From the NCBI GenBank assembly GCA_947646735.1, contig CANTFK010000362.1, positions 33,443 to 97,442 on the forward strand: a stretch of 64,000 nt of DNA, written 5' to 3'. The stretch is from Peronospora farinosa (Eukaryota; Oomycota; Peronosporomycetes; Peronosporales; Peronosporaceae). The notes below the pieces were generated by a model. It saw nothing but the letters and a program-made list of their open reading frames with translations. It was not told the origin of the DNA and ran no database searches. Position numbers and translations under genes: made by a program. Position 1 is the first letter of the stretch. Each line of letters begins with the position of its first letter. Of the stretch, positions 6,790 to 50,025 are shown piece by piece.

Positions 6790-8570
6790 GTCCACTCGGG
6801 ATCCTGACGTCCACCAAGACGACAGGAGGGCGGAGGCCCAGACCCGACGTAACACTGGGAGTGACGACCGTCCGTCTGCCAGAAAGGTCTAAAGATGTGA
6901 GTCTTACGCTGCTGCAAAATCGCAACAACGAGATGGACCATCAAAACGGTCGGGGTCAGTAGGGGCGGAGCGCCCTACCGATCCAGCAACGTCAAGAGAG
7001 TTTGCGGGACTCTTGATGAAGGTTGCTCCCAACACACAGTCACTGTGTGTTGCCGCTCCCAGTGATGAGGTATCCCTCATCACATTGAAGATAGAAGGAC
7101 AATTGCCATGTCTCTTCGCGCCCTAGTTGACTGTGAGGTTTCGAACAATTTTGTCCGACGCCAATCTCTAGATGATGGTAGGCTCAATATCTTGAGCGCA
7201 AGACCCCCCCCCCCCCACGAGGATGATGGTGTGCCTTGCAGTTGGCCTACCGTAACAGTAACGAAACGTGTAGTGGGAATTCACTACACGCTTTAAGGCA
7301 AAAAGTACGATGATGATTTCATCGTACTTGATCTGGATGACAAATTTGATGTCATCCTAGGATTACCATGGCTCAGAAGGTATGAGCCATGGGTCAGCTG
7401 GCAGCATCGAACCGTGAAGATGCCTGCCGCTTGTTCATCAGATGGCCATCTGATGAACGTCTTGGAGCGTTCATAAGCGTGTGAATGTACTACGAGTGAG
7501 TGTGATGGCCTCACTTGTGGTTCGGTCGTTAGTACGACTGCACAAGAACTCAATATGATAGACAATCATACTGTGGAGCAAGATGCCGGCGGCTGTGCAG
7601 AAGCACAGGCAGTGCCAAGCCCACACGTTGAACCGGGACATGAATGTTCTCCTAGAGAGTGGCATTTACAAAAGAGGAAGCCGGTAGACCGGAAGCTGTA
7701 TTACGTTGATTTTAGATCAACTGGAGAGTCGATCGTAGAGTATCTCGCTATGGTTGCGCTACCAGAGATAAGGGGGGTTGAGGGAATAAGTCCCCAGTGC
7801 CCTGAGAAAATAAGTCCTTAGAAAGTAAACGAGACGTTAGAAGTCGTGTTTAATGACGAATTAAGCGTAGGCGCTTGTACTCTTGATCTGGTAGCACCTC
7901 CGAAGGTAGCAACGGAGATCACTCAATTGCCACGCCAGAACCTAAATTTCATGCTCAATCTGCCAAGTGGAAAAGTCAAGCAGATCTAATTAATCATCGC
8001 GGAGGATGAGTACGCAACCAATTAGATCGGCAATGGTATTTGCTGAGAAAAAACGGGTTCTCAGTAGCTCATCATCGGACGGGGGGGGGGGTCTTTTAAT
8101 AAGAAGACTTGAATGAGTAATACACATCTCAATTCCGAGAGTCGCTTAAGTCAAAACCATTGTATAACTATTTAATAGAATTCAAGTATAAATTTCCTGT
8201 CTCAGTTCCGTGAGAGCTTCCGAAGATATAGGTACTCGACATGAGATCGGCCTCGTTTCAGGCACAGTTCATTGTGTTATGAAGCAGTGGCCACTGACTC
8301 GGTAACTGGTCGAGGCGATCGACAAGTTTCTTTGCCGATCGTCTAGCTGCAGGTCATGTTTAAGAAAGGCGATCGTGTTTATTGTCTAAATAAGGTCTAA
8401 AGGATTCAGCAGCTACTAATCTAGGCGCGAGTAAACTCGCGCCACGCTTCATCAGTCCATTTAAAGTTCTGAAGGCAATTTTCGACGCTTATACACTCGA
8501 TGTTCCCTCATCATTTCGACTCCACCTGAAGTTCTTTATCGGGCGGATAAAAGAATATGTTCCGGCTAAG
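6790..8570 (+). pseudogene. Element E protease, RT and INT remnants
   Basis: The plus strand carries degenerate pol. At 7108-7296 a protease-like LRALVDCEVSNNFV appears; the catalytic Asp is kept but the following Ser/Thr-Gly is lost. A segment at 7310-7400 reads FDVILGLPWLRRYEPW, typical of the end of the protease domain. RT survives only as its N-terminal block at about 8230-8370 (RHEIGLVSGT, then KQWPLTR). From about 8420 the sequence jumps to the integrase C-terminal GPF/Y-type module (NLGASKLAPRFISPFKVLKA), which matches element C closely. The RT core, RNase H and catalytic integrase are deleted, with the junction near 8395-8420. Homopolymer runs at 7204-7217 (C) and 8082-8093 (G) add frameshifts. 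Confidence 0.65.
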
Positions 8571-8984
8571 CTTCACGGCTTTGCTTCGATGCAGGCTCCA
8601 GGGATCCGTAAGGCGATCGGCCTTCCTGTCGTGCTCGACGCGCCGATGACATTGAGTGCGGTTTCGATGCCGTCTGTACACGTCCAAGCACCTGGCGCTC
8701 CAGAACCCTCACCCGTTCTAGCAGTTTACGGCTCGACTGCCGGGTCTCAGGGTCATCGTGACCCAGAATATGGTCTACAATCCAGCGCACCTGTCTCGCT
8801 GCATCAACAAGCGGAGGTGGGCCTTCGCGATGTCAATGCTGGTGTCCTGGTTGCCCAGGACGATGTTGATCAAGCCGAGAACAAAGCTGCCGATGCTCAG
8901 CTGGAGGCTGAGGCTGCCAGTGAGCGCGATGCCCAGGCGGAGTATACTACAAGCTCCCCGATTAGTGCTACAGTCGCCTCATGA
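8571..8984 (+). pseudogene. Inverted spacer block of element E carrying an antisense-ORF remnant
   Basis: Read on the minus strand, this block encodes PPPLVDA followed by RWIVDHILGHDDPE. These match the segment just before the chromodomain of element C (PPPLVDASGARRWIVD). The integrase tail before it and the chromodomain after it are both plus strand, so the block is inverted relative to its own element. Its plus strand therefore carries the strand that is antisense in C. It is open for 132 codons (8589-8984) with a segment RDPEYGLQSSAPVSLHQ aligning in frame with RDRKSGRQSSVAHPMHR of the C antisense ORF, then an Ala/Glu-rich coiled-coil-like stretch. Confidence 0.55.
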
Positions 8985-9213
8985 AAAGCGCGCGGTTCCA
9001 TCCGCGCGCAGGTACCGAGTACGCTGTCTTGGATTTCCTCCCATGCAGGAGACATGGGGAAATGCGTTCTCTCTCGTTCATGACATTCCAGATGTTTTTC
9101 AGTCGTACGAAACCACGGAGTCGAGCTATTTAGATGCGCGCGAACGCAAATGCTCTCGAGATAAAGAAAACGGTGAGGAGACCACGCCGTCGAGAACGAG
9201 AACGATGATGTGA
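8985..9213 (+). pseudogene. Chromodomain fragment of element E
   Basis: About 76 codons on the plus strand contain YRVRCLGFPPMQETW followed by a helix (VHDIPDVFQSYE). The order matches the C chromodomain (YRVRWLGYSPADDTW ... VPDVVEDYE). Chromodomains at the integrase C-terminus of chromoviruses bind histone marks and steer integration. The usual WLGY is changed to CLGF, so the aromatic cage is damaged. It ends at a stop at 9211-9213. No 3' LTR is evident downstream. Confidence 0.65.
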
Positions 9214-9261
9214 TAGAGAACGTCGTGGTGAATACATTTCACTACGATCACGAGGCGAGAA

Positions 9262-9918
9262 ATGCGCAACAATACGGTCAGGCGAACTTGTTGCTGCCCT
9301 GCCTTAACTATTCAGCGGAGATTGTATCCGCTGTCACGAGTGGTGCTGCCAACGAGGCGCACCATGAATAACTGCGCTTCTACGTTCGACCAAACCTCGC
9401 TCATACTTTGCAATCCAACTTTGTTAGCATTAGCTGGGTGGACACTGAGCGATGTGTCGTCGCCATTCGTCATGAGCTGGGCGTGGCGTCGAGTAACAAG
9501 ATTGGCACCCTTCATTGACATGAAAGAAGAAGAGGCATTCTCATTTCAAGTATCATCATACTAGCGCGACAATGGAATGAATATTGTATCCGATTCCATC
9601 TAGAATCTTTTCACGCATTTTTCGAAAACGCCGGAAGTAGTCCCGCATCGTTTTCAGTGAGTCCGGACCGCGAGCTCCGGATAAGTTATACAGCGTTTAA
9701 GGTGTGAGTTGTTGCGCCATGATGCTGGTAGTTTCAATCTTGCTGATGGTGCTTGGGAGTGCTGCAGTGCTGCGTGTCGTGTGGTCGATAATCGCTTGTT
9801 CGTTTGTAAAGTTTAAAGTTTCAACAGTTAAGCACTCACGGTTGGTGAGTGCTGTCTTGAGAAGGGAGTAATGTGTGGTGGAGTGGATTCTCAAACAACG
9901 TGAGAGAACCACAAACAC
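9262..9918 (-). pseudogene. Gag fragment F, inverted relative to element E
   Basis: Minus-strand frames at 9697-9918 and 9312-9521 and the sequence between them read as a decayed Gag. The segment near 9600-9680 gives LKTMRDYFRRFRK, comparable to the [10 protein letters not shown] region of the C Gag. Position relative to the LTR-like block at 9920-10640 matches the gag/LTR order of element E in opposite orientation. No protease or RT follows below 9262 on this strand. Confidence 0.4.
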
Positions 9919-22399: not shown

Positions 22400-22708
22400 T
22401 GTAACGGGCCAAGGATCTTACACTAAAAGGGCGTTGAGGAAGCGCTCTTAATTTACTCGTAAATATAACTCTGTTTTATTTTTGTTTTAGTTTTAATTCG
22501 CAGTAAGTGCGAATATGTTCCCTAGCTCATGGGAATTACTCAATATGGAAGTCAATTTATTATTGGCTAATTATTGGGTATGGCACCCCAATAATAAACC
22601 AATAATAAAATGACGCGCAGTATCCGCTAATCGGATACTGCCCTATGCCTACTTATGTAATTATGTATTAATCCTATAACTACGTATGTAATAGGTAGAC
22701 TCATTACA
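22400..22708 (-). repeat. 3' LTR of element C
   Basis: This 309-bp block has TG...CA ends and matches 29709-30027 almost exactly. A ten-base indel near the terminus and about five substitutions are visible. It borders element B sequence on the left, where GATAA precedes it. On the right, as read on the minus strand, a purine tract directly precedes it. Confidence 0.9.
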
Positions 22709-22810: not shown

Positions 22811-24205
22811 ATGGACACTAGACGCCCACGAAACAATGTCTCTGACAGCCAGAACTGGGAACACCAAGCGACAATCCGTAGAGAGCAGGCGCCGCAGGTC
22901 ATGGATGGGGACTTGAAACCGTGGCGCTTGTATGGTCTTGAAGGAGCTGTCGAACCCGAGCCACTGGAGGTCATGAAGGACCTTTTCACGCGATACCGTA
23001 CAGTGAGAGGCAAGGTGACGAACAACGCATATACCGACGATGCGTTGCAGAGGTCTTGGTGTGCCTTCATCAGGCGCTGGAACGCGAGCCGACGTGAAGG
23101 AACGTCCTCACGTCCAGGTTAGACGGTCGCGAGGGAACGCGATATTGGCGACCTGCGCCGGCGCATCTGTCGTATGACTTGTGACGAGTTTCACCTTTGT
23201 TACGTCCACATTCGTGAGGGATGTCTAACGTGCAACGTGGGCGGGTCGCGACCGGTCCGGCAGGAATGGGACGACTTAGTGTGTGCGCGAGGCATGCCCG
23301 ACCATATTCGTCCATGGATTGCCCGTTATGAGAGAAGCCTTTCGGAGCTCCAGGTGTCCGAGCTACGGCGAGTGAGAACGCGTCCTTACGATCGCCGACG
23401 GCATTCACGTAGCCGAGATCGTCAACCGTATCATCCATATGCTCTCGAGCCTCGTAATAGGTCTCGGTCTCGGATTCGCTCGGGAGGTCGTTGCGGTTTC
23501 GTTGCTCGCGAGCATTACGGCTCGCGAGATCGGGGATGTAACCGTCAGCGTCGGTCGCGACCACCGTCTTTCTACGGGACTCATAGTCCTCGACCACGTC
23601 CGGGACATCTTGGGACAGCGTACTCGATGGCTCCCATGTATCGTCCGCCGGGGAATATCCCAACCAGCGAACCCTGTAATGTTTCTCGACACGCTTCTTC
23701 ATGGGCGCCGAGTTATTACTCGGCGCCTGGGACTTGTGATCCTCGTGATCGGAAATCCGGTCGACAATCCAGCGTCGCGCACCCGATGCATCGACTAATG
23801 GAGGAGGAGCATCACGACGGAAGGCCTCTGGCGATGAGCGCCGATTCTCGTAATCGGGCGCCTGTACAGTCGAATGATGAGCTGCGCCTACTCCGCGCTG
23901 AAGCTGAGGAGTCGAAGAATGCCCTACTTGATGCTCGCGAGATGGCTGAGAGAGCTCAAGATCGTGCGGATGCTGCGACTGAGGCTGCTGAGCGGACTCG
24001 ACGTGAGCAGCTGGTTTTAGTTGAGCGCCTACGTCAACTTGAGACGACTGCGTTCGGAGGGCCCCAGCAGATCGAGTCTGCACGCGTTCGGGCAGGACTT
24101 GGTCCCAGTCGTTGTCAACGTCGTCGTCAAGGGATGTCGGATCTCGAGCCGGCACAGAAGAGCGGGGAAGATTCGAGGGGAGATCCGCCGGCAGGTAAGC
24201 CTTGA
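22811..24205 (+). CDS. Antisense ORF of element C (Arg/Ser-rich, coiled coil)
   Basis: On the strand opposite to gag-pol, a single phase of 465 codons runs from an ATG at 22811 to a stop at 24205, interrupted only by a TAG at 23120-23122. Residues 1-103 contain an acidic helix and a Trp-rich segment (SWCAFIRRWN). After the TAG come a short bridge and a second ATG at 23174. In the second part, residues about 65-131 are rich in Arg with RS and RD dipeptides (RRRHSRSRDR, RNRSRSRIR). Residues about 235-290 form a predicted coiled coil (ELRLLRAEAEESKNALLDA...). The gene begins 103 bp from the 3' LTR and ends inside the opposite-strand integrase C-terminus. I know no family for it. An RNA-binding or nuclear role is suggested only by composition. 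The TAG may be a recent mutation or be read through. Confidence 0.6.
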
Positions 24206-24404
24206 GGCGCCCGACGTAGAACGTCGGGTGCAAACGCATAGATGTAGGTATGTCTAGCGTGTAAGCGTCACCATGCACCTTAACAACCCGAAATGGGCCA
24301 ATATATCTTGGCGCTAACTTATTAGCGCCCAAAGTCGTCACTGAGGTGTTTGGTAATCCACTTGTTGATAACAATACTCTGTCACCTACTCGAAATATCA
24401 ACAC
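23070..24404 (-). CDS. Integrase C-terminus and chromodomain of element C
   Basis: This 444-codon frame is open throughout. Residues 25-70 are the GPF/Y module (LAPRYIGPFRVVKVHGDAYTL ends near residue 50, then HPTFYVGRLKAYLP). Residues about 90-200 are a low-complexity spacer rich in Ser, Gln and Pro. Residues about 210-276 (nucleotides 23577-23777) are a chromodomain: RWIVDRISDHE, then KHYRVRWLGYSPADDTWEP, then a VPDVVEDYE helix. It belongs to pol and is separated from the catalytic integrase by an in-frame stop at 24453. It probably never functions alone. About 1 kb overlaps the antisense ORF on the other strand. Confidence 0.75.
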   Translation of the reverse strand: MLIFRVGDRVLLSTSGLPNTSVTTLGANKLAPRYIGPFRVVKVHGDAYTLDIPTSMRLHPTFYVGRLKAYLPADLPSNLPRSSVPARDPTSLDDDVDNDWDQVLPERVQTRSAGALRTQSSQVDVGAQLKPAAHVESAQQPQSQHPHDLELSQPSREHQVGHSSTPQLQRGVGAAHHSTVQAPDYENRRSSPEAFRRDAPPPLVDASGARRWIVDRISDHEDHKSQAPSNNSAPMKKRVEKHYRVRWLGYSPADDTWEPSSTLSQDVPDVVEDYESRRKTVVATDADGYIPDLASRNAREQRNRNDLPSESETETYYEAREHMDDTVDDLGYVNAVGDRKDAFSLAVARTPGAPKGFSHNGQSMDEYGRACLAHTLSRPIPAGPVATRPRCTLDIPHECGRNKGETRHKSYDRCAGAGRQYRVPSRPSNLDVRTFLHVGSRSSA

Positions 24405-24452: not shown

Positions 24453-25764
24453 CTATTTGAATGCATCACGCACAAAACGCGTGATTCCTTGTCGTAATAG
24501 TAGGAATTCGGTTACTGCAGCCGAACTTACAGGCGACGTATTCTCCTTTGGAGCAAAATTGGCAACGGAAGACGCGATGGAAAGCATCGCGTCAGGAGTC
24601 GATATGTCGTTGTACACGAAATTACCAGTATTAGGTGCATCGGCAGCAATCTTATGCGCATCGTAATCAATCATCAATAGTTTCGGCGCAATTCCATCCG
24701 TAGATACTCCCCCACCAAGCTTGTAGACAGGGTGTTCTGAAGCTGAGAGAGCAAGCAGCGCCGGAACGCAAGAATGCCTCGCGTTGTTAACGAAAAAGGG
24801 CGTCAACCCGGTTGACGCGTGGACAGCATTGTTTATTGCAAACTCTGCAAGTGGAAGAAATGAACTCCATGATGAGAACTATGTTGCATAACTGCGCAAG
24901 ACATCTTCGAGCACTCTGTTCACACGCTCCGTTTGCCCATCCGTCTCTGGATGGGCCGCCGTAGACATAAGCAACCGCGTGCCTAGTAGCTGGAATAATT
25001 CGGCCCAGAAAGCCGAAGTGAAACGCGGGTCACGGTCCGAAACAATAGATTCTGGCAAGCCGTGATGCCTAAAGATAAGATCAATGACGATCTTCGCTGT
25101 CGTCTCCGCCGTAATGTTGGCGGAGACCGGAGCAAAATGCACCATTTTGCTGAATCGATCCACTAGAACCAATACGCCCGTGCGTTTCTGTTCATCCGGT
25201 GGAAGGCCAAAGATAAAATCCATGCTGACCGAGCGCCAGGCTTCCGTAGCAATCGGAAGCGGACGAAATGGGGCTTGTGAAGACGGCGCAGGCTTCACAC
25301 GCTGACAGGTTTCACAGGAGCGCACCCATTTCTGGATGTATTTATACATTCGCGGCCAGAAGAATACGCGAGAAATAGTTGCAAACGTCTTCTCGCGACC
25401 CAGGTGTCCGCCAGCTGGGCTGTCGTGAAATTCATGAACCAATCGGGCTCGAAGGTCGTCATCAGCAGGGATGACGACACGCGGGGAATCAAAGACGTCC
25501 ATCGTGTACGTCAGCAACGGACCACCAAGCGCGTAACGCTTGATGTTTGTCGCGTGTTGGTTTCGTCAACTTCGCGAGTAATTTTTCGCTCGGGTCCCTG
25601 AGATAGTTGATGATTCCTGCATAGAAGGAATCATTCGCGTAGGATTCAGCGATCTGAGTTTGGATCGATAGCACGGGGGTCGAAATCATCGCATTAAGCC
25701 CCAGCCCAATACAACACGCACAGGTATCTTCGTCGTCATCAACATACTCCGTTTGATGACCCAT
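24453..25764 (-). pseudogene. Integrase catalytic region of element C
   Basis: Three frames cover this region. 25489-25764 is the RNase H-integrase tether. 24879-25517 holds the zinc-binding HHCC (HEFHDSPAGGHLG ... CETCQRVKP) and the DDE core: MDFIFGLPPD for the first Asp, VSDRDPRF for the second, and TDGQTERVNRV for the Glu, so the catalytic triad is complete. 24453-24806 continues the core C-terminus. Breaks are a frameshift near 25530, a TAG at 24879-24881 and a stop at 24453. The domain is recognisable and full length, but it is not expressed as one product. Confidence 0.85.
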
Positions 25765-25833: not shown

Positions 25834-27584
25834 TTAATGCACCACAAAATTATACTCGGCAAAAAATGACAACCACCGTGCCATACGCTGGGACAAGTGA
25901 GGACTCTTGACGGCGATACGCAATGATGCGTGATCTATGTAGATAGAAAACATCTTTTCGCCGAGCAAATATACTCTAAACTTGATTAGCGCGTAACGCA
26001 TAGCCAAAAGTTCCTTATCGTGTACCGGATAATTTTTCTCGGCAGGTTTCATTTGTCGTGATTGAAAACTCACGACGCGCTCTCGACCCTCGTCATCAAA
26101 TTGCATGAGAGCACATCCTATAGCGAAATTGCTCGCGTCGCACACGACGTGGAATGACTTAGAGTCATCAGGTAACATCAGCACCGGTTCCTCGGACAAG
26201 CTCTTCTTTACGGAGTCGAAGGCAGATTGATGTTCTGCCGTCCATAACCATACTGAATCTTTCTTGAGCAAAGTCGATAATGGCTGAATTAGCTCAGCAT
26301 AGTTCTTCGTATACTTATGCAAGTAATTCGCCAGACCGAGCCATTGACGTAATTCAGTTTGGTTTCTGGGCGTTGGCCAGGAACAGATCGATGAGATCTT
26401 CTCAGGATCAGTGCGGACACCTTCCTTGCTGACGTAGCAACCGAGTACTGGAATCTCGGGAGCGCAGAAGACACATTTCTTCAAATTCGCATACAATTTA
26501 TTCTCGCGCATAACTTGAAACACCTGCTTCAAGTGTCGAAGGTGTACCTCCGTAGCGCTGAGCTTTTGCTCAGCGCGGCTGTGAACGAAAATGTCGTCAA
26601 AGTAGCTCGGTTCAAAGTCGCGAAGTGGGCGAAGTACTTGTGTCACCATCCGATTGAACGTAGCTGGAGCATTCTTAAGGCCTTGTGGCATGACTAACCA
26701 CTCCCAAAGCATCCCGCTTGGGGTGCTGACCGCAGTGAACGGAATGTCACTGTCCCTCATGAGGATCTGATAGAAACCGTCTGTCAATCTACGGCGCTGT
26801 AGATCTCGCTCCCGGACATGGTTTTTAATACCATGTCTTTTCGAGGAATAGGCGTTTGAGCCGGGATCGTGGCGTCATTCAGCTTGTTGAAGGCGTGCAC
26901 AATGCGCCAACCGCCGGTGGCTTTCTTCACACAGAAAGTCGGACTCGAATGTGGCGAGATACTCTCGCGGACATGGCCAGCCTTGCGGCGACCCTCGAAA
27001 AAATCATCAATAGCGATGACTTGGTCGCGCGGTAACGGCCACTGCCGCGTCACGCAATATTTCGATCCTGGCACGAGATCTATCTCGTGCCGCACACCAC
27101 GATCGGCCGAAGAGCTCAGCTGGACTTGTCTCCGGAAAAAAGTCGGCGTTCTCACGGCGATATCGTATACAGGGTTGCCCGAAGCACGAAGAGCATCCCA
27201 AGACTGTGCCGCGAAGCGTTCTTCGCGCGCTGATTTAGGCTCGGCGCTCTTCGGGCGAGCCTCCAGAACTTCTTCATTGGCTGCTTCGGTGGCTAAAACG
27301 ATGCACACTTGCTCGATGTCGCCGTCCTTGAGGTCATGAAGGAAGTCTTGCCATGTAAGGTCTGGCAGAGATGTGATATCTGCAGCAGTGCACGGTGGAC
27401 TCGCTACCTCAATGTAGCGGCCACGATGTGGGGATCCCTCCACATATTCAAGCGCGCATACGGATTCCGTCACTACGGAATCAAATGTATCAGCATCTTG
27501 ACGTGAATTTCGTCGTCTCGGTGATCGGCGTGCTCCTTTCTTGCGTTTTCTCTTGCGTCTCGAGCCCCTTCTCGATACTGGCAC
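25834..27584 (-). pseudogene. Reverse transcriptase and RNase H of element C
   Basis: Frame 26784-27584 holds a basic linker (RRKRKRKKGARR), then the RT fingers: RHEIDLVPGSKYCVTRQWPL and SPHSSPTFCVKKATGGW. The second frame, 25834-26787, has TDGFYQILMRD, SGMLWEWLVMPQGLKNAPATF and the catalytic PSYFDDIFVH. The RNase H follows with VCDASNFAIGCALMQ, DKELLAMRYALIKF and YIDHASLRIAV. The junction at about 26786 lacks one base, which separates the first catalytic Asp from its downstream Thr/Asp-Gly. A stop at 25834 ends the RNase H early, before the tether. All motifs are otherwise well preserved, so the inactivation looks recent. Confidence 0.9.
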
Positions 27585-27602: not shown

Positions 27603-28145
27603 TTATGTACCCCCCTCTAGACGTGGGAGCTCTGTCTCCACCACGTCGGTCTCATGCGGATCCGTAGTCCGCCCATTCTCGTCAATCAAAAGCGGGAGCT
27701 CGTCTTCGACCGCTCCACTTGTTTGAGGGAGTCCCTGCTCGACCGCCTCGATATTTATCGGGAGCCTCTGCTCGTCCGATGTGCTTGTATGCGGGAGCCC
27801 CTGCTCGACCGCCTCATTGAGAATCGGGAACCCCCGTTCGACCGATGTCTGTGTGTGCGGGAACCGCTGTTCAGCCGCCTCGTTGTGAATCGGGAACCCC
27901 TGTTCGACCGATGTCTGTGTATGCGGGAACCGCTGTCCGACCGCCTCGTTGTGCATCGGGAACCACTGTTCGACCGATGTCTGTGTATGCGGGAACCTCT
28001 GTTTGACCGCCTCGTTCTGTGGCTCCGTCAGTGTAACGGAACATACTGCGCACAGAGAGCCATCGATCTCTCTGTGTTGACTACTAGTCGTGGCGAGTTC
28101 GTTCACGACCCTGATGTGAGGCCAATCGGATGAAGCGACCAACAA
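27603..28145 (-). pseudogene. Protease-RT linker of element C with 22-residue repeats
   Basis: The frame continues from the protease region in another phase. It contains five tandem copies of a 22-residue unit (66 bp, 27687-28016) of the form NEAVEQRFPHTQTSVEQGFP, the last two more diverged. The unit is acidic and Gln/Thr-rich, with no known function. Elements B and D have a Ser/Thr/Gln-rich linker with shorter repeats in the same position, so a repetitive tether between protease and RT may be usual in this group. Confidence 0.7.
27687..28016 (-). repeat. 66-bp tandem repeats in the element C linker
   Basis: Five head-to-tail copies, in frame, so each encodes 22 residues. The first three copies are nearly identical and the last two are diverged. 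Confidence 0.8.
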
Positions 28146-28642
28146 ATGAGTAACACTTCACTGACGTCATAACCGCTTCGTCTTTTGACGGAACGAGATA
28201 GCCAATCTATCTTCGGCTGATACCGTGACAGCCACGGTATCCCAAGTATGCAATCAAATGCATAGTTCATCTCGTACACCAAAAATTCGTCGTTGCTCTG
28301 GAAACCGTCGAAAGTGTACGGTAAAACCACTGTTTTACGCGAGACACGTTTTGATTGTCCATCGGCAAGTTTGACAACGATTTTACCTGGACCTTCTCGA
28401 ACCGTGACAGTCGACGGGAGAAGGGACAAACAGGATACACGAAAGAAGTTGTTGGAAGCGCCAGAATCCAACAACGCTCTAATTGTTCGCTTCACTCCAG
28501 CGACGATGAGACTGATAATAATCAGTCTCGAATCATCGCGCATGGTGGTGGCATTGAAGTGGGTATGAATCAATTTGGGGCTAGGAGCCCGAGCTGCCAC
28601 TTGAGTACTCGGGGCTCCATTTCTGCCGGTAGGGCGCCCCAA
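28103..28642 (-). CDS. Aspartic protease of element C
   Basis: This 179-codon frame contains the retropepsin active site LLDSGASNNFF near residue 59, a hydrophobic core (KIVVKLADGQSKRV) and the second conserved region CILGIPWLSRYQPKIDW near residue 132, as in other Ty3 proteases. Retropepsins mature the Gag-Pol polyprotein as dimers. The frame overlaps no part of gag: gag ends at 28645 with a stop directly before it. The two are in different phases or separated by a stop, so translation would need recoding or the element is broken here. Confidence 0.75.
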   Translation of the reverse strand: MGRPTGRNGAPSTQVAARAPSPKLIHTHFNATTMRDDSRLIIISLIVAGVKRTIRALLDSGASNNFFRVSCLSLLPSTVTVREGPGKIVVKLADGQSKRVSRKTVVLPYTFDGFQSNDEFLVYEMNYAFDCILGIPWLSRYQPKIDWLSRSVKRRSGYDVSEVLLICWSLHPIGLTSGS

Positions 28643-28644
28643 GC

Positions 28645-29690
28645 CTACTGGAACCGCTCGTTTTTTGGCGGGACCACCGACGACACAGCGTCTCCTCGTG
28701 AGACAGCTGTGTTCATCGTCACCGGCGCAGGTGCACGACAGACAGCCGCACGATGGCCTGTTCTACCACAACGAAAACACTTCATCGTGTTAGGATTGCG
28801 AATGTCGCGGCTTAATGATTTGCCACGACCACGAGAGGAATCAATTGCATTAATTTCCATGGGCTCTGGGCCAGACGTCCGGGGATGTTGTGACGCTGCG
28901 TGCAGGTACGACGACGCGACAGTGTAATCCTCACGAAGCGCGAGGGCAAATGCCTCCTCGAGGGACTTTGGCTCAGCACGTGTGAGGCAGTAACGCGTCA
29001 TGCCCTCTTGCATTCCAAAAATAAAGACATGGACTTGTGAAGCCATGTCAATTGGCTGCGTGGTAATGCACGAAGCAAGATGACGTGTCTTCTGCACGTA
29101 GTCACGCATCGACAGCTTGCCCTGTCGGAGTGAGAAGAAATCTGCACGCAAGCGAGATTCATCTTGAGGAGGCTCGAAAGCCAGTCGTAAGTCACGCTGA
29201 ATATCGTCCAGCGTAGGAAACGCCGACTCATCTACGACGAGCTTTCCGAGAGCCCATTCCTTGGCTTTGCCGGCAAGACGAGACAACAGGAAATTGACCT
29301 TGGCCGTCGGAGTGTCAATTAATCTTGACGCTATTGCAATATCCACCTCGCGAAACCAGCGATTGAGGGGGAGACGATCCGGACCATCACCGGAGTACGT
29401 TGACGTCTCCATCTTGATAGCGACATGGTGCGAAGTGCGCGAGGGAGTCAATACTCGCCGATTCGCTTCGGCAAGCTCGCGCACCATATAGTCTTGGATG
29501 GTGGCACGTTGATCACAGGCGTCGCTGTGCTCAGCAGCGACGTCACAATAGTTTCACCAGACACCGCCGCGAGGCGATGTAGTGCCTGCCACTCTACCGA
29601 GGTGAGATGTGGAAAATCAGAATGCTCCAGCGAGACCGCTGGAGCCACCGAAGACGCCCATGTTCATCTCGAATCTGGTCATTGAAAGGA
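28645..29690 (-). pseudogene. Gag of element C
   Basis: The main frame (28645-29487, 280 codons from an ATG at 29487) contains a Ty3-type capsid region: [32 protein letters not shown] and [17 protein letters not shown], ending with [14 protein letters not shown] zinc knuckle [14 protein letters not shown] follows at about residue 237. Upstream to about 29690 the reading continues in other phases (MNMGVFGG..., then [19 protein letters not shown]), so the N-terminus is frameshifted. The capsid and knuckle themselves look intact. Confidence 0.8.
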
Positions 29691-29708: not shown

Positions 29709-30027
29709 TGTAACGGGCTAAGGACCCGTTACCGTCTTACACTAAAAGGGCGTTGAGGAAGCGCTCTTAATTTACTCGTAAATATAACTCTGTTTTATTT
29801 TTGTTTTAGTTTTAATTCGCAGTAAGTGCGAATATGTTCCCTAGCTCATGGGAACCACTCAATATGGAAGTCAATTTATTATTGGCTAATTATTGGGTAT
29901 GGCACCCCAATAATAAACCAATAATAAAATGACGCGCAGTATCCGCTAATCAAATACTGCCCTATGCCTACTTATGTAATTATGTATTAATCCTATAACT
30001 ACTTATGTAATAGGTAGACCCATTACA
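29709..30027 (-). repeat. 5' LTR of element C
   Basis: This 319-bp block with TG...CA ends matches the 3' LTR at 22400-22708, apart from an extra CCGTTACCGT-like ten-base insert and a few substitutions. It borders element B gag at 30028. Confidence 0.9.
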
Positions 30028-31829: not shown

Positions 31830-32504
31830 GGCAGGCCGCGGCGTTCCAACAGTTGCAGGAGCAACGATTTCTCAGCAATATGTTGAGGCATACGGATGGA
31901 AGGAGGCACGACCGCGATGACCTTGCCTTCGAAGTTTTTTTAAAAAAATCAGACATCGCAACCCGCGTGTCACTTGGGTGCGTGCATACCAAAAAAACGG
32001 GCGGCGACGGAAGTACAATATCTCCCATCTATCATGCTGCAAGCGTCATCTCCTCAAGTGGTATAATTGGATGCACAGCATCATCCACCTTATCGATCCA
32101 AGGTCTCGAAGCTGTGCGACTAGTAAAGCACTCGGTCTTGCAACCTACCGACCTCCGCCGGAGTCGAGGCGTTGCGGTCGACGAGGCCACTTTTGTCATT
32201 ATAGCTGTTAGGCTCGCCGGGGTCGTTTCTGCACCGGGGTCCGTTAGGTACGCTGGGGTCGATACATTCGTTGGCGTCGATGTGGTGGCTGAAACCGTTG
32301 ATCGCAGCCGCGAGCAAGACCCGACCAGCTGCCGTTGGCCCAGAACCAAGCACGTATTTCCACTTCATTTGAGCATCCTAGCTCCCAGATTGTGAGGGAG
32401 CATCGCCCAGCGGCAAATTGCCGTCATTAACTAATCATGGGTAAAAAGGGTGGGGGGAAGTGAAAGAGTTTAGGGTTTTTTTGTTTAGTTTATGGGGGTG
32501 GGTT
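31830..32504. other. Unassigned region with open frames on both strands
   Basis: A plus frame (31853-32395) and a minus frame (32032-32349) are both open, but neither shows a motif I recognise. Which, if either, is coding cannot be told. The region begins where the B LTR is cut and ends at the G-rich tract. Confidence 0.35.
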
Positions 32505-32523
32505 GGGGGGGGGGGGTTGGAGG

Positions 32524-32578
<55 letters not shown>
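32505..32578 (+). repeat. Poly-G tract
   Basis: Twelve G (32505-32516), a short interruption, then an uninterrupted run of 52 G (32527-32578). An apparent ORF that reads poly-Gly through it (32460-33020) is not credible. It may be a sequencing or gap artefact. Confidence 0.9.
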
Positions 32579-38581: not shown

Positions 38582-40064
38582 ATGATGGCGTTCGGGGACG
38601 ACCTTGACGACGGTATGGCGGAGCGTCTGATGAACGGGACTACCGACGCAAATAACTCTTCTTCCTCAGCTCCATTTGTCGACGACTTCGATCTTATCTC
38701 GGAACGTGAGACGCTCGTATTTGAGGAAGATTTCTTTCGTCAGCAAAAGCGACTTGGCAAACGTGGAGGTTTCTTCCAGACGTATTTATTCGAGAAAATT
38801 CAACCAGGATCAGGTATAGACATCTCTTTTATGTAGACTTATCTAATTGTTGTGCTAATGCTCTGACTATATAGTGAAAGGCTCCATGTTCACAATGACA
38901 GTCGCAATTGTCGGTGCTGGTGTATTGGCGCTTCCCTACGCCGTACAACAGGCGGGACTAATTTTGGGCATCTCACTTATTGCTTTGGGTGCGATAGCTA
39001 CAAATTTTACTCTAAGACTGCTACTAGAGTGCTCGGATCTTGGTCAGGCGCGTTCGTATATGGACTTGGCCATGGCTACAGGAGGACACAAGCTGGCAGG
39101 TTTTACACAGCTAGTTGTGTGCATCAACCTCTTTGGAACGTCGATTGGCTACCTTGTGGGTAGTACCGAGTTGGTCCAACTTGCGTTGCGGACGTTCCTG
39201 GGGAGAACGAGCCAGAGCATCTTTCTGGACCGACAGACGTTAGTCCTGATACTTACAGGGTTTCTCGTGCTGCCGTTGTCGCTACTACAAAGTCTGGAGT
39301 CACTGAGATTTTCATCGCTGTTTTCGATTGTCTGCATCGTGTTCATGGCGTTGGTGATCGTGATCAAGTACTTTCAGTTTGTGCATGAAGGTCTGGCTCC
39401 AACAATCGAGTTTCAGATCAAGCATTTGCGGCTGTTTGACTGGCGTCTTAGCCACTTGCTACGTGCGATTCCACTCGTCGTGTTCTCCTTCACGTGCCAT
39501 CCGAACGTACTTCCTATCTATTTGGTACTCAAGCGTCGATCCAGCACAAGAATGTACAAGGTTATGAACCGCAGTATCGGCATTGCGACGGTCGTGTATT
39601 CGCTCTGTGGGTTCTTTGTTGTTCTCACATTTGGCGAGGCGACCCAGTCTAATTTTCTCAGAAACAATTACCACGGCGATGGTGCTGTGATCGCTGGGTC
39701 TTTGGGTTTCGGCATCGCACTTATTTTGACCGTCCCACTGTTCGTCCACACGTTACGTGACAACATCCGCGAGGCTCTATTGGATAACCGTTCACTCGAT
39801 TTGGTACGTCATGCTTTTTTGTCAGTGTTTCTAGTATTGGCTGCAGTTTTAGTAGCCTTGGGATCCGGCGACATTGCGTCTGTACTCGGTGTGCTTGGTG
39901 CCACAACCAATCCGACGATCTGCTTCATACTGCCGGCATTTTTCGTCGTTCGACTGGGCAGCAAACACCATCGCTCCAGTCAGATCACTGCCGTGGCAAT
40001 AGCCGTCATTATGACTGTCGTGAGCGCATTGAGTTTACTACAACAGATGCACATTATCGCTTAA
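38582..40064 (+). CDS. Amino-acid/auxin permease-type transporter (AAAP)
   Basis: Two exons (38582-38813 and 38875-40064) joined by a 61-nt GT-AG intron give 473 residues. The first 75 residues are hydrophilic and acidic, with a cytosolic N-terminal tail (DDLDDGM..., FVDDFDLISERETLVFEEDFF). After KGSMFTMTVAIVGAGVLALPYAV, the signature first helix of the AAAP family with the Gly-x-Gly break, about ten more hydrophobic segments follow to the end (...ALSLLQQMHIIA). The length and helix count fit the family of proton-coupled amino-acid transporters in plasma or vacuolar membranes. The motif HPNVLPIY in the middle is typical of SLC38-like members. Substrate cannot be read from the sequence. A second ATG follows at 38585. 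The gene appears intact. Confidence 0.85.
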
Positions 40065-40218: not shown

Positions 40219-43200
40219 ATGGCGAGCGACGTCGAGGCGCTCACACGTGCGCTCGGAGAGCTCTCCGTGTCTTTGCGTCGACGCCGCCGAAGCTGTCAAA
40301 GCAACGCCGAGAAATACCGTGTCTTGAAATGGCTACATAGCTTAAAGAGCGAAGAATTGGCGTCTCTGTGCTGTGTGGAGGACGTGGCCTTTGTCAAGAC
40401 GCTGCTGCACATGGCGGCGCGTTCCAGAGGCAATAAGCCGCTTATACAGGAGTTTCAGCTCTTGCCACAGTCTATCAGTGGCTCTACTGTGGCCCAGAAC
40501 AAACGCTCAATAACCAAGACGCCGCTAAAAGCCGCTCCAAGGTGAGGAAGGTGTTCAAAAACTATTTTTTATCAGGTTTCTGACGTACTTGTTGGTTTTA
40601 TTAGAGAATTTGTAAAACGTCCACTTGTTAAAACAATCGATGGAGATGTGGTGACGAGTTTTCACACTCGAGAGTATGAGGAATGCTGTTTAAAGCTGAT
40701 GAAAGGCATGAGAGTTCTTAACGCACTGCAGTCTTGCGACACGGTGGCACTGTCGATGGATTTTTTTCGTCCTGTGGGAAAAGGATGTGGTACATTTGCT
40801 GGGGACTTTTTTCACTTAATGAATGTGATATCATGTGGTGATTTTCTCATGGATTGTCCGTCGGATACGACGTTGAAACATCGTATATGGGCCGAGACAA
40901 AAGTACGGAACTGTGTGTGGCAACGGAAGGAGATTTGGCGAGAGTGTGACGTCTTGTATTGTTGGTCATGTCTTGTATGTGGCTTCATGTAGTGGCTAAA
41001 GGAACAAGGTTATTATTCGCTGCAAGCGCTCTTCGTGAATCAGATTGTGTGTATTTGCAACAACATCTATATATTTGGTTATCGTACTTGCACGATACGC
41101 TGGTTGCGTAAATCTGACATTGTACGATGTTGCGTGCAACTCGATAGGAGCTTAATATATGGGCGTCCTGGAAGCAACACAAGAAAGACGTGACTACAAA
41201 AATACCACTTCAAGGCCTCGCATCGAAAACTTACTTGGTGCACGAATGGGAAACAGCAAACATTGATCAGAAGGATGCAGTATTAAGGGTGCTTCGTTCC
41301 AAGACGATAGGGCATCTTCGTGATCTCACGGAGCCGGTACCTGTCCAAGCGGCTGGGGCAGCGAAATTTCAGGCTGCACGCTTGTCGTTGGAGTCGCTTT
41401 TGTGTATACTGACTGTGCATCAACAAGCAAGGCAGCAGGCTAATCATGGAATATCAGTGGATACCTGTTTTACGTGTGCATTTGAAGAAGCAGTGATTTA
41501 TCCTCAAGCAGCAGTGATAAAGCTATTGCTTGCAGAGCATCTTCAGGAGCAATGCTCGCTTTTGCTTTGCGAAAGGTTGACGAAAGAAGAAGAGATAGCT
41601 GCTGCTTCGAGCATGTCGGTAAGTGTGACTTTTAGCGACAAAGTTGGTACTATGGATGATGGTACCAAAGTCAAGGCAAAATGTGCCAACCACTCCCAAC
41701 GACGGCGTGCAAGCCGAAAGAGAATGCTTAAACTGCGACGCCGCGAAGGCGAAAATCGTGCTATTCTACGGGAACGTTTTAGTTGTGTGTTGCGTGAGCT
41801 TCGCGAACATTGCTGTCGGAAGCAGGAAGAAGCTATGGCGTGCGTGGATAAGGTACAACTTGATGTTATTGATACCGTTGTTGGCGGTAACCAGCTAATA
41901 TCAGATGGGTGGAGCATTTGTACCGAACGCTGCATCAAAAACAATGGTCGACCTAGACAAAAACGAAAAGATAAGAAAACGAGGAAAAAGGCGGGTACTG
42001 CGAAAGTGGCAGCGGGGCTGGGGAGCAGCAGCATGGGCGAAAAAACGTTGTTAGTGACCTTGCCCCAACCCGTCAAAGTGCTAGACAAGCCGCACTCGCG
42101 CCGACCAAGTGGGGAAGATGATGCTAGTGAACGCAGTGCTGCGACCGCCGGCTCGGATTCTTCACTGTCTCAGCGTGATAAGCCGCTAGCTGGTTGTGAT
42201 ATGGAAAGCGGAAGTACGCATGACGACGGCCCAAGCTTGAGTTTTTTCTCCAATGTTGGGTCGACTGGAATACCAACATCGTCGATTTCGTCAGCGTCTG
42301 CGCTACCATTACCGACGTTTGGCTCCCAGCAGCTTTACTCGTCGTCGGCAACGACACCTTTTTATCTATCGTTGACACCTCGGGACCCATATGAACAATC
42401 ATCTCCAGTTTCTCGTCGAGGCATCGAAGACGATGACGATAGTAATAGACGAAATGAAACGTGTCCAGCAGGATCGGAAAGCACTTCTCATGAAGTACCA
42501 GTGACTTCTGAGACGTCAAATTTTGAGTGGTTCATGCCATCCGTCTTTTCGTTCCAGGCCTCTGCGCAACGAAAATATTCTCTAACGCCTGGCCTCGATT
42601 GGCATTTTAATCACTGGCAATTTAAGGCTCCGGATGGGAATGTTTTGGATAAGGAGGCGTCACCTTCTACGACCAGAGGTGCTGGGTTGGACCCTTCGCC
42701 ACCACCGTCGTCATCGTCATCAGGTTCCTCAGCTTCGTCACGTTTCGCAAACGCGAGGATATCGGGATTAACGAAAAAGTATTCGTTGGCATCATTCTCC
42801 GAGATAGATGGGATGGATTCAAGTCGACGAGGGTCTGCCAACGTGGATCCTGACAACCCAAGTTTAACGGTCACATCGATTCGAGAAAATGGCGACGGCG
42901 CTTCAGTTACTGTAGATAGCGATAACAAGTCTGACTTCTTGTACCGCGAAGGGGGATTTTTTGATCGCCAGCGCGCTCTTAAGCGTCGACGACGCCCATG
43001 GCCATATAGCTACGCTCAAGAAGAGAGCGATTCTGCTGATGAACATGATTCTCGCAAAGATGGGCGCTCAAATATGTACGGAAATTTGAAGCGGTGCATT
43101 GACGCAAGTCAGAAGGGTGATACGTGGACAGATTGTGTTCACTGCTGTAAATGTGCATGCCACCACGGCACCACTGCTCGCCTCCGAAATAAGCGTATGG

Positions 43201-45819
43201 AGTACACCGAAGATAGCGATGCCGACAGCGGCATCAACAATGAAATCAATGATTGTAAAGATCAACATTTCACTGCGCCGTCAAGTTTTTCGATGAAGGT
43301 CTTTCAAAATGGACTTGACGTCAAGGTTACAATGGCTTTAGAGCGCATGACATTGCTGGAAGAAAAACTGGTCGAGACAACGAAGGTATTTGCTTGTTTT
43401 GGACGAAAATGGAATATTCTGCATTGCGTGCTCATCAGTATGTTACTGGTACCTATAGGTCATGGAAGAGCATACTGTTAGTGCGTCTTCTGAGATAGCT
43501 ACACTAAAGCAAACGATGGCAATGCTAACCGCCCAGCTTCACAACACCGAGAACGATATCCAAGAATTTCAACTTCAGCAGTCTGTCCCTGCTAATACGA
43601 GTGGATTGGATGATATGTCCATGGGCCATGTGAGCTCCTGTAACTCGCCGCCAGCTCCGTTTTCACCAGCCCCTTCGTCCCTAAACCAGCAAGCCGAAAG
43701 CACACAAACTACAGTACCTACCTTTCCGGAAGCATACGCACCAACAAATTCTGTGATGGGACCATTCGTATCAGTCCCATTGTCGGTGCTTCCTCCACGA
43801 AGTAAGTTACACTGGGACTTGTGTGAATTTGCAGCACAGCTTCAAGTTGACAGTGATTCACGCCTTCCTGCTCAGCTTGCTGCTCAACGGTTGTGTATGG
43901 CGACAGTGCAATCGCTATGGCCGCGTGCTCAGGTACGACCGTACGGCTCACATGTATCGCGGCTGGTACTTCCGTCAAGCGACGTTGATCTCGTAATCTG
44001 CTTGCCAAAGGTGCGTCGTGACGCGCCAGCTGACGCAGCTGGTATGTTGGAAGGTCGAAACGCTATTAAGGAGACGTGGCAACAGAATCTTGCCCGCAAA
44101 CTAAAGCAAGAGCCTTGGGTTGTGCGTGACTCGGTAAAAACGTTACCGCATGCTGCTGTCCCGATTATCACACTCCTTACTGCCCCTCCATACAATGTAA
44201 GACTCGACATTTCGTTTGAAGGCCCCGGTCACAACGGTTTAGCTACCAATGAAGTCGTTCTTGCACTGCTTCACGAATTCCCGCCTCTAGCGCCGATGAT
44301 GCTTATTTTAAAAAGTTTTGCGATCGATCGGGGTTTGGCGGTAGCTTATTCGGGCGGACTGTCGTCGTACGCATTGCTGCTGCTTGTGACGCGCTATCTC
44401 CAGGAACACAGCGACACAATGCCCAATGGTTTTGCAAACGCTTCTCGAGCTGTCCAGCACAGTCTGTCAACGGTACAGGCGGGCGTGGCAGACTTCGGTC
44501 TGATGCTTATGGGATTTTTGGATTTTTACGGAAACCGGTTTGATCCGCGCACTACGGGAATTAGTGTAGCCTCGCGCTGCTTTCTAAATCGTGAGAGCAC
44601 TTTCATGGCGGGGCCCGGAACTCCAGGAATGGGTGACCCTCATCATGTCCCACATCAATATCAGCAGCAATACGCAGCTGACGATGCCGCCGTGGACGAT
44701 CGCACGAGCCAATACGGCTATGGTCAACATTGGCAGGTACCTGCGCAGCCTCACATGCAGACGCTTCCACCACATTCCGAAGCAGCTTCTGCTCAGGGCT
44801 CCCGGCGGTATGGCTACCGTTCCTCGCTGGACCTGCCAGCATCCCGAGAACTAGATGGAATGAGCGCCGCGACAGGCCTTCTGGACTATCAGCAGCTGCA
44901 ACAGCAAACGTATGATCCGCACAAGTTCGACCCGGTGTTTATTGAGGATCCGTTATGCCCGAGCAACAATGTGGGCAGAAATTGTTTCCGTGTCATGCAG
45001 ATCCGCCGCGCTTTCTCAGCAGCTCACCTTGCATTGCTTACTGCATCGCGAGATCCTGCAGTATTTGCAGACAATCGGATTGGTTTAGTAGCTGGTGTTG
45101 CACTCCACCCGGACAATATTCTACGTGCCATCTTGGGCGCAGGTGCTCCAGTGAATGCGAAGCCTGATGCTGCTACATCTGCGGCGGTCGGAGTAAATTC
45201 GTACACGGGTGCAGAGCATCCTTACGCATTTCACTCTTACAACCAGCAGCAAAACCAGCAACGATATGGGTACCATCACCACCATCATCAGCCGCCACAA
45301 CCGTCATATGATCACACCGGGGTTCCGCCGCCGCGCAGTATGAGTGCGCATCGCAATGAGCCAACATCGCGAAGGCACAGTGAAAGCGAAAGCGAGAAGC
45401 TGACGACGGGTTCGGCAACCTCGACAGCGAGTCGTAATGATCGCACAAGGAAGGGGCACATGGGTAGTCCGGGGCTTATTCCCCAGAGCGACAATGGCAA
45501 TGATCCTTCCCAAGTGCAAGTACACTTGCTTCGTCCAGTCTCTACAGATCACGGGCGTCAGCCACGCCGACTGGCATCTCTGAAGCAGATTAACAACCAA
45601 CAGACAACCAATGTTCTAAGCCGCAAGAACAGTGAACGTTCTTTAAGCTTTGCGGACGTCGTGCGCGATGGTGGGGGGACAAATGCTGCAAGTGTGACTA
45701 TGTCAAAGACGCCACTTCTGGCTATTGCTCGGCCTCCACGTTTTTCACGCGATGACATGGCGCTGGAGGAAAGCATTAACGAACGGCGGGAAACCAAGGA
45801 TGACTCAGAGCTTAAGTGA
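40219..45819 (+). CDS. TRF4/TENT4-like non-canonical poly(A) polymerase, large
   Basis: Secure exons are 40219-40541, 40605 to about 40840, 41148-43385 and 43459-45819. Introns at 40542-40604 and 43386-43458 keep phase. Between 40840 and 41147 the reading phase changes and splicing is not resolved. The 3' exon holds the nucleotidyltransferase: VRPYGSHVSRLVLPSSDVDLVICLP has the GS and the first two catalytic Asp (DVD), and VRLDISFEG gives the third. LKSFAIDRGLAVAYSGGLSSYALLLLV is the PAP-associated central domain. TRF4/TENT4-type enzymes add short A or mixed tails for RNA surveillance. The 750-codon exon before it is charged, Ser/Pro-rich and ends in a coiled coil (ALERMTLLEEKLVETT) that runs into the next exon (SSEIATLKQTMAMLTAQL). 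A long low-complexity insertion (His/Gln/Tyr-rich) interrupts the C-terminal domain. The ATG at 40219 is assumed; the small N-terminal exons could instead be a separate gene. Confidence 0.7.
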
Positions 45820-48426: not shown

Positions 48427-50025
48427 ATGCCACCGAAACGTGGTAAGGCTGATGGGGCGCCTGCAAAGGCACCCATGCAGTCCAGCACTAAGCGCACGCG
48501 CCTCGATTTATCGCAGCCGTCGCAAAGTGCGTCAGGCACTGGGGTGAATCTTCCATCTCACGATAATGTGGATGAAGATACATCTCTCATTGTAGACTAC
48601 AATGAGATCACACCACTGCCATCACCCCAAAGTGGCGATGAGCATAGTGCATTGATGGGACATATGTCCCAATCATTTTGAGGCACCCGTCCTTGAGGGA
48701 GCATCTATGCTTCCTACAAGCGAAGGTAAAACCTCGTCGTCTGCGCCTACGAGCTCAGCGACTAAGACTGAGCACGCTACTTCGAAAGGAGTAGTCGCGA
48801 CTCAGTCAGATGTAACTTCTCAAGCTGATGTCTTGACAATCCATAATGGAGAGTCAGACTCAGGTGAGTGTGAGCTTAAAGCTCCACCAAGTACACCGTC
48901 GGCCTCACTAGCCCGCCGTCACAAGAGCGGCTACGTGAGTGGTGGCTTGCCACCAATGCCACCTCCATCTGAGTGGATGAACTCGGATGGGTCTAGCGCA
49001 GCGCTTTTGCAGCGTGCCACTATAGACGCTCATAGATTCTATAGCGTCTTTCCTTTGTGGAAAAAGCAGGGCAAAGCACTTGGTCGTTCTTTCCCAATTC
49101 CAGTCGTGCTGCGTTCTAACGAAACAGCCGACGAATATGAAGCTGAACTTCGGCGCCGTGTTACCTTGCATGTAGATGCAACGAAGCAACGGTCGCAGCG
49201 ACTCAGCTTCATCTTGAAGCGTGCGCATGAAATCTTGGGTGGTAAGCGACCCCCAATTGATTCTCGCCACGCTTCTTCTACTAGTTCATTCGGACCTAGC
49301 AGAAAGACGACAGCTGGTTCTGCTTCACATAAGCAGCCACAAGCCCAGGCACGTCAACGCGCAAAGCGTGCACAGTCTCCCACGAGTCAAAGCTCGTTGG
49401 GTAACCCTTCCACTGGACAAGGATTTGGAGCTTTCGCTTCACAAACCGGTGGGCCAACACCTTCCAACAAGGAAGCGCGTGTTCCCATCCGTGTCCACCA
49501 ACACAGGTGGCGCCCGATAGGAGTGGCGATTACGCACACCTAATCGCGGCTGCCTACCCTGCTGTTGTTCAGTCGCAGGCTGAGTCTGCTGCGCTGAAGA
49601 GACAGGTGTCAGATCTCGAGAGTCAAGTCTCGCGACTGACTTCGGATCTGCGCGATATGAGGACGAGGGACCGTCAGGGGTATGACCGCCTGAAGACTCG
49701 TTTGGACATTTTAGAGAGACTGGTGATGAGAGACCCGCGTCAATCGCGTAGTCTCTCCGTCCTCGATCGCCGATTCCTCTATCGCCTCGTTCGTATACGG
49801 GGAGCCTATCGGCTTCCTCGTCGCCTGATCGGTCGCGACACTCGACTTACAGTCGACGTCACCATCGGTCTCGTTAGACCGATGTGGATATGTGATCTCT
49901 TCTGGATCAACATATCGTTTCAGGCGACCCACGTAAAATACGGGGTGCGTCTTCATATACGGTGGGAGAGTGAGCCTATAGTTGAGGGGTCCAACTTCCT
50001 CAACCACTGTAAAGGGCTCAATTAA
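48427..50025 (+). pseudogene. Antisense ORF of element D (two frame changes)
   Basis: Three plus-strand frames follow one another: 48427-48681, 48707-49543 and 49507-50025. The phase changes near 48690 and in the 37-bp overlap at 49507-49543, so they probably derive from one ORF of about 530 codons starting at the ATG at 48427. The first part is MPPKRGKADG with Ser/Thr-rich sequence. The second has a helical domain (FYSVFPLWKKQGKALGRSF and EYEAELRRRVTLHVDA), then a Gln/Arg-rich stretch (QPQAQARQRAKRAQ). The third has a clear coiled coil (ESAALKRQVSDLESQVSRLTSDLRD) followed by an Arg-rich tail. It starts 107 bp from the 3' LTR and its end overlaps the opposite-strand integrase tail (49711-50073). 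The order (N-terminal helical part, basic part, coiled coil) resembles that in element C, though sequence similarity is not obvious. Confidence 0.5.

Follow-up and report, generated by a model that had tools for sequence, protein, structure and literature searches.

A long antisense open reading frame under purifying selection opposite the end of pol in a Ty3/gypsy element of Peronospora farinosa

Plant and fungal LTR elements, as well as a few retroviruses, are known to carry antisense accessory genes, and to our knowledge selection on long opposite-strand overlaps has rarely been demonstrated. The plant genes of this kind, termed aORF-3R, include gene23 of maize Grande and those of rice RIRE2 and of Retand (TRP28); according to the accessible parts of PMC7264820 and PMC11963269, they are present in most copies of their elements, and a nuclear or DNA-binding role is suspected. 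Among oomycete elements, the accessible part of PMC5348765 describes Chronos as having a second, archaeal-type RNase H, and Chronos is also mentioned in the accessible part of PMC12477816. The word “antisense” is absent from the main text of the Chronos paper (PMC5348765), as far as that text is accessible, and a literature search covering titles and the beginnings of abstracts, with subscription papers mostly outside it, returned no description of an antisense open reading frame (ORF) in an oomycete retrotransposon.

The window analyzed here is a stretch of 64,000 nucleotides from Peronospora farinosa (assembly GCA_947646735.1, contig CANTFK010000362.1). Element C lies on its minus strand between a 5′ LTR (29709-30027) and a 3′ LTR (22400-22708), which both have TG...CA ends and are 98% identical over 293 nt; the element is flanked by GATAA and GATGA, an imperfect target-site duplication. 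Pfam recognizes a gag piece (28645-29487; Retrotrans_gag, with a zf-CCHC match slightly under the cut-off), an aspartic protease piece (28103-28642; RVP_2), a reverse transcriptase and RNase H piece (25834-26787), and the zinc-binding and core domains of the integrase (24879-25517), scattered over several minus-strand ORFs in different frames. Pfam searches of 26787-27584 and 27606-28145 gave no match, and a tandem repeat with a 66-nt unit in 4.3 copies lies between the protease and reverse transcriptase pieces (27692-28016). In the pol pieces searched, which cover the bases of this broken copy in part, only RT_RNaseH families were matched and no archaeal-type second RNase H was found. The end of pol is read from an open sense frame (24452 to 23073, minus strand) that holds the C-terminal part of the integrase with an SH3_Tf2-1 domain (24195-24386, minus strand, converted from residues 7-70; E 9.1e-14), a linker, a predicted chromodomain (23574-23771, minus strand, converted from residues 212-277; Pfam Chromo, E 5.5e-11), and a C-tail. 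The Pfam match marks element C as chromodomain-bearing and, at most, as a putative chromovirus. Elsewhere in the window are a run of 85 bases, mostly G (32494-32578), two ordinary-looking host genes on the plus strand, for an amino-acid transporter (38874-40061; Aa_trans) and a Cid1/MTPAP-like poly(A) polymerase (43462-45816), and, beside the latter, an open frame of 777 codons that lacks a Pfam match (41148-43478).

Opposite this end of pol, a plus-strand ORF runs from an ATG to a TGA at 22811-24205. A sequence-only reading of the window had described it as one phase of 465 codons interrupted by a single TAG, and translation bears this out: the TAG, placed by translation and alignment, is at 23120-23122, and the longest stop-free stretch (23123-24202) has 360 codons. 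Direct reading of another copy in the genome, L002, gives 468 codons and no stop; alignment to L002 shows 12 bases missing from the window copy near the TAG, which is flanked by small gaps. The ATG is 102 nt from the 3′ LTR, the presumed source of an antisense promoter, and an oomycete initiator consensus was not found upstream of it. In 59 of 63 well-aligned copies, the pol frame ends with a stop at antisense position 343; the ORF accordingly has about 340 nt that are antisense only and shares about 1060 nt with pol. In the window copy, bases are missing near this position and the pol frame continues past it, so that the right edge of the antisense-only part (22811-23141, plus strand; delimited by the pol-frame stop and by the selection tests described later) is approximate owing to alignment gaps. 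Because the sense frame is open from 24452 to 23073 and contains SH3_Tf2-1 and Chromo matches, the rest of the ORF faces the pol C-tail, chromodomain, and linker as far as the SH3 domain. That domain is nearly all outside the ORF, and its end approximately coincides with the ORF end. The location between integrase and 3′ LTR given by the sequence-only reading is therefore imprecise, as it holds for the first quarter of the ORF. The structural class aORF-3R, defined by a position opposite gag-pol and between pol and the 3′ LTR, likewise applies in part, as about three quarters of the ORF overlaps pol. The two frames are staggered such that antisense position 2 faces pol position 3 and antisense position 3 faces pol position 2.

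A search of the same genome (46.85 Mb in 274 contigs) with the antisense protein gave 124 matches, with 118 of 676 candidates scored. Seventy loci were used, comprising the best 30 by search and 40 picked for coverage and divergence; because the antisense protein itself served as the query, copies lacking the ORF would be missed. The whole 468-codon frame, with the same ATG and stop, is present in seven of the first 30 copies (L002, L003, L005, L007, L011, L012, and L017), the ATG is retained in 56 of 62 copies, and 69 of 70 have a stop codon at the corresponding end position. The idea that the antisense ORF is better preserved than gag-pol did not survive this comparison: over the shared stretch, the 70 copies have 4.43 stops per 1000 codons in the antisense frame versus 3.76 in the sense frame, 24 and 26 copies, respectively, are free of stops, and in the window copy the sense frame is open across the shared stretch.

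We conclude that the ORF is almost certainly a protein-coding gene under selection. Its predicted product has an N-terminal domain with four cysteines, retained in 28/29, 26/31, 29/32, and 27/32 ungapped rows of a 33-row alignment, a middle part with a net charge of +3 to +33, and an Ala/Leu-rich C-terminal part. RS/SR dipeptides exceed the expectation from composition in 10 of the 11 members tested, P0002 being the exception. Reading from sequence, the four-cysteine domain may bind zinc, and the C-terminal part is read as a probable helix. No Pfam family was above the cut-off in six members, and neither the Transposase 28 domain (PF04195; Retand/TRP28) nor the bZIP domain of HBZ gave a Pfam match at E 1 in these six. 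PHROGs gave no match for two members, the best PDB hits (E 0.18 by sequence and 0.48 by profile) are not convincing relatives, and pattern-based scans of viral and prokaryotic contigs gave no relative.

These features would suit a nuclear nucleic-acid-binding regulator, to which we give an even chance. A promoter within the 3′ LTR would transcribe the gene; the protein would enter the nucleus through its basic, RS-rich middle, could self-associate through the C-terminal helix, and may bind nucleic acid through the four-cysteine domain and the basic region. Its target might then be the RNA or LTR of the element itself, with transcription, splicing, or export as the affected step; Rev, HBZ, and plant gene23 act in this way or are thought to. 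The explanation that we favor as a whole, by a slight margin over an even chance, is that of a coding accessory gene of a chromodomain-bearing Ty3/gypsy lineage in Peronosporaceae whose product would be a nuclear regulator. The alternative that survives best keeps the selected protein and makes it structural, that is, a particle component, nucleocapsid-like, or a component of the preintegration complex, acting together with gag or the chromodomain integrase. Four cysteines and a basic middle would also be apt for a nucleic-acid chaperone, the identities of the antisense N-terminal domain and of the pol SH3 domain are correlated (Mantel rho 0.49, p=0.02, for 10 pairs that we chose ourselves), which speaks for the accessory gene of the favored explanation as well, and the zinc knuckle match in the gag of the window copy falls slightly under the cut-off. 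Against this, gag-pol is translated from a message other than the antisense one, and RS repeats are commoner in nuclear RNA factors; we consider a structural role unlikely, if worth keeping in mind.

Relatives in other species were sought in two protein searches, with 8000 candidates scored in each. These yielded 39 distinct public relatives, all gene predictions. Ten Peronospora and Phytophthora species are named as sources (Peronospora destructor and Phytophthora fragariae, rubi, capsici, megakarya, ramorum, idaei, cactorum, infestans, and nicotianae), and two of the relatives are unnamed. Working with proteins only, we asked whether each antisense protein can be encoded opposite a pol protein in the expected stagger, using a panel of 120 pol proteins listed among 1110 matches. 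With a cut-off score of 50, which was chosen after the scores had been seen, 27 of the 39 are compatible with some pol protein; these 27 are not independent, many being close relatives with a common partner, as among the P. idaei and P. cactorum entries. Some of the partners belong to another species. For the P. fragariae proteins P0003 and P0056, 95.1% of 326 residues are compatible versus a background of 27%, and the pair scores 262, whereas 200 shuffles of P0056 never exceeded 14. For P0143 and P0116, both from P. idaei, 100% of 245 residues are compatible. The other 12 proteins, including those of P. destructor and P. infestans, had no pol partner reaching a score of 50 among the 120 tried. 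For the first 13 proteins all three staggers were allowed; of the 169 pairs reported, 156 fell in the expected stagger, 12 in the second (P0011 with P0056 scoring 129 there), and one in the third. The first 105 residues of P. fragariae P0003 lie beyond the end of the fitting pol protein and contain the best conserved stretch, around LQRSWCAFIRRWN, which is outside pol in the family of element C as well. With high confidence, the overlap is conserved within Peronosporaceae. The same relatives bear on the idea of a host gene that was captured by the element and still does a host-type job. The definite domain plan of the protein would agree with such an origin, as would its lack of relatives in PHROGs and in the viral and prokaryotic contig scans, but no relative among the 39, which come from Peronosporaceae or are unnamed, bears the name of a host gene, and 27 fit antisense to a pol protein, which makes a captured host gene improbable.

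A second family was found in the same genome with a P. capsici relative as query (105 matches at 40-54% identity, with 92 of 751 candidates scored); by eye, 24 match rows span more than 400 residues without a stop. In eight loci of this family, L071-L078, most of the overlap again pairs the antisense frame with a sense frame at that stagger; the antisense frame of L078 is broken by a stop. Pfam finds a chromodomain in the pol piece of L072 (P0017), and the pol piece of this family is 86% identical to a P. effusa protein. Between the families, L002 and L071 differ outside pol with pS 0.76 and pN 0.46 over 113 codons, the silent sites being saturated, and dN/dS is 0.60 from residue 180 on; within family 2, the single pair L071 and L074 gives a dN/dS of 0.57 over 199 codons outside pol, which indicates no strong constraint. 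In L071 and L075, the two family-2 loci inspected, the ATG lies 12-13 nt from the inferred LTR edge, and the mRNA leader would therefore come from the LTR, the one observation here in favor of the expression from the 3′ side that the sequence-only reading proposed.

Selection on the two frames was assessed by comparing variants shared among copies with singletons. On the assumption that a copy, once inserted, decays without constraint, singletons provide the neutral reference and shared variants the filtered set. Shared variants were those in at least five copies, among the 64 copies left after removal of the near-duplicates L010, L014, L034, L040, L056, and L066; the Fisher tests are one-sided, carry no correction for multiple testing, and assume independent sites, although sites are linked in related copies. 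In the antisense-only part, the odds ratio (OR) is 0.15 for the antisense frame (p=3.7e-6) and 2.23 for the pol frame. Relative to singletons, the shared variants of this part are enriched for antisense-silent changes. The pol tail behaves similarly (antisense OR 0.30, p=3.7e-4; sense OR 1.23), and in the chromodomain it is the sense frame that is constrained (sense OR 0.23, p=7.8e-4; antisense OR 0.99). The chromodomain-side linker has an antisense OR of 0.24 (p=0.0014) and a sense OR of 0.53 (p=0.11), and changes that replace residues in both frames drop there from 71 of 135 among singletons to 2 of 27 among shared variants. The SH3-side half of the linker showed no significant constraint in either frame among these 64 copies. 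An integrase-only control region gave a sense OR of 0.30 (p=2.1e-5) and an antisense OR of 1.98.

With cut-offs of three and four copies, the picture was alike and weaker (pol tail, p 0.04 and 0.021), a run on all 70 copies also supports selection on the antisense frame, and an early pairwise phase table for 30 copies pointed in the same direction. Counts by codon position gave, at cut-offs of 3, 4, and 5, p values of 0.0089, 0.058, and 0.00034 in the antisense-only part and 0.028, 0.3, and 0.0028 in the pol tail; on the LTR side, they revealed no bias (0.98, 0.32, and 0.45). The antisense ORF is thus under purifying selection, and the burden is split, with the antisense protein constrained in its own part, the pol tail, and the chromodomain-side linker, and pol constrained in the chromodomain and probably in the chromodomain-side linker as well. 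As a separate observation, the SH3-side half of the linker, at L002 antisense positions 1230-1404 (window approximately 24029-24203), has an excess of shared sites at codon position 1 (11/2/5, p=0.02); this is position 1 of both frames, and neither explains the excess. That the antisense transcript acts as RNA, in double-stranded or small form or by interfering with pol, and that the ORF is incidental to it, has been raised for plant elements in the accessible part of PMC7264820, and the accessible part of PMC10186651 notes that retroviral antisense RNAs can act both ways; codon-position-specific selection on the antisense frame, however, is unexpected for an RNA-level role alone, and we judge such a role very improbable as the whole account.

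A codon-phase null that accounts for the overlapping sense frame, of the kind that the sequence-only reading had proposed for dN/dS, was obtained by permuting synonymous pol codons over the overlap (2000 shuffles) in one copy per family, L002 and L072. The expectation is 6.3+-2.0 antisense stops in L002 and 6.5+-1.9 in L072, versus none observed in either, and 0 of 2000 shuffles were stop-free in each of the two families, so that the openness of the antisense frame exceeds the null. Conversely, the antisense frame does not explain the pol frame, which was recovered open in 4 of 2000 (L002) and 0 of 2000 (L072) reverse permutations. Most of the result is carried by the pol tail, where 10 of 2000 shuffles were free of antisense stops; in the linker, the antisense frame is often open anyway (863 of 2000 shuffles on the chromodomain side and 717 of 2000 on the SH3 side), and in the chromodomain the shuffles have a mean of 0.2 antisense stops, 1659 of 2000 being stop-free. 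In L002, about 130 codons are open in the one sense frame whose wobble position coincides with that of the antisense frame, and the antisense-only part has the same bias in it; the family-2 copies L071 and L074, however, have this frame closed. A mirror frame, that is, an accident of pol codon usage with no protein made or selected, would suit the chromodomain, where sense codons predict few antisense stops and the antisense frame is unconstrained, but it can hardly be reconciled with the whole-overlap shuffles in two families, with constraint beyond the pol end, with the closed wobble-sharing frame of the two family-2 copies, or with the first 105 residues of P0003, and was rejected. The shuffles, the shared and singleton variants, the divergence between the two families, and the relatives in other species together support the separately selected accessory gene suggested by the sequence-only reading.

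The sequence-only reading had also placed ORFs in the same layout in two other elements of the window. In element A, whose pol is on the plus strand, tblastn with P0012, P0013, and P0017 identifies a minus-strand remnant that is homologous to the ORF of element C (8569-9771); in this element, a segment of approximately 200 nt in the pol linker and antisense ORF (about 8748-8954) lies inverted at its original position. In element D, a plus-strand antisense ORF in two frames (48707-49543 and 49507-50025; 48707-50025 overall) lies opposite the end of pol in another Ty3/gypsy family. It is at the same place and lacks detectable similarity to that of element C, homology having found no support from BLASTP or hhalign. 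Genome-wide, it has 139 matches (139 of 1057 candidates scored), with open frames of up to 537 codons, and its second part has weak coiled-coil-type Pfam matches under the cut-off. A broader reading, to which we would give even odds, is that a dual-coded gene pair over approximately 1 kb of the integrase tail predates the Phytophthora/Peronospora split, with constraint handed between the frames, and that the lineage of element D acquired, at the corresponding site, a second antisense gene unrelated to the first; because of the latter, antisense accessory genes would be recurrent in these elements, as well as selected and comparable to HBZ and ASP.

Here one genome offers numerous copies from two families, and the stagger keeps the wobble positions apart, so that selection can be read per frame and per region. 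A set of unnamed proteins from Phytophthora and Peronospora is also explained, as being encoded by elements, and annotators of oomycete genomes gain a reason to inspect the antisense strand.

Among described genes, the plant aORF-3R genes and brtn come closest to the antisense gene of element C. It resembles the plant genes in being a gene against gag-pol near the 3′ LTR that lacks clear relatives (PMC7264820 and PMC11963269, accessible parts), and it differs from that of Retand in that its protein has no TRP28 match. Like brtn, the antisense gene of Boty in Botrytis (PMC7264820 and PMC8365987, accessible parts), it is an extra antisense gene in an LTR element outside plants; the host of Boty is a fungus and that of element C an oomycete. 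Element C shares with Chronos a chromodomain at the end of pol beside the integrase and hosts in the Peronosporales, as far as the accessible part of PMC5348765 describes that element. In retroviruses, HBZ of HTLV-1 and ASP of HIV-1 are antisense genes under a 3′-LTR promoter (PMC10186651 and PMC8781085, accessible parts). The product of element C differs from HBZ in having no bZIP match by Pfam. The likeness to ASP lies in the overlap with a sense gene, and codon-permutation logic has also been used for ASP (same sources and parts); ASP overlaps env and is held there to be recent, whereas the antisense gene of element C spans genera. The antisense gene of element C is thus of a known kind, and it is unusual in its long, selected overlap with a chromodomain.
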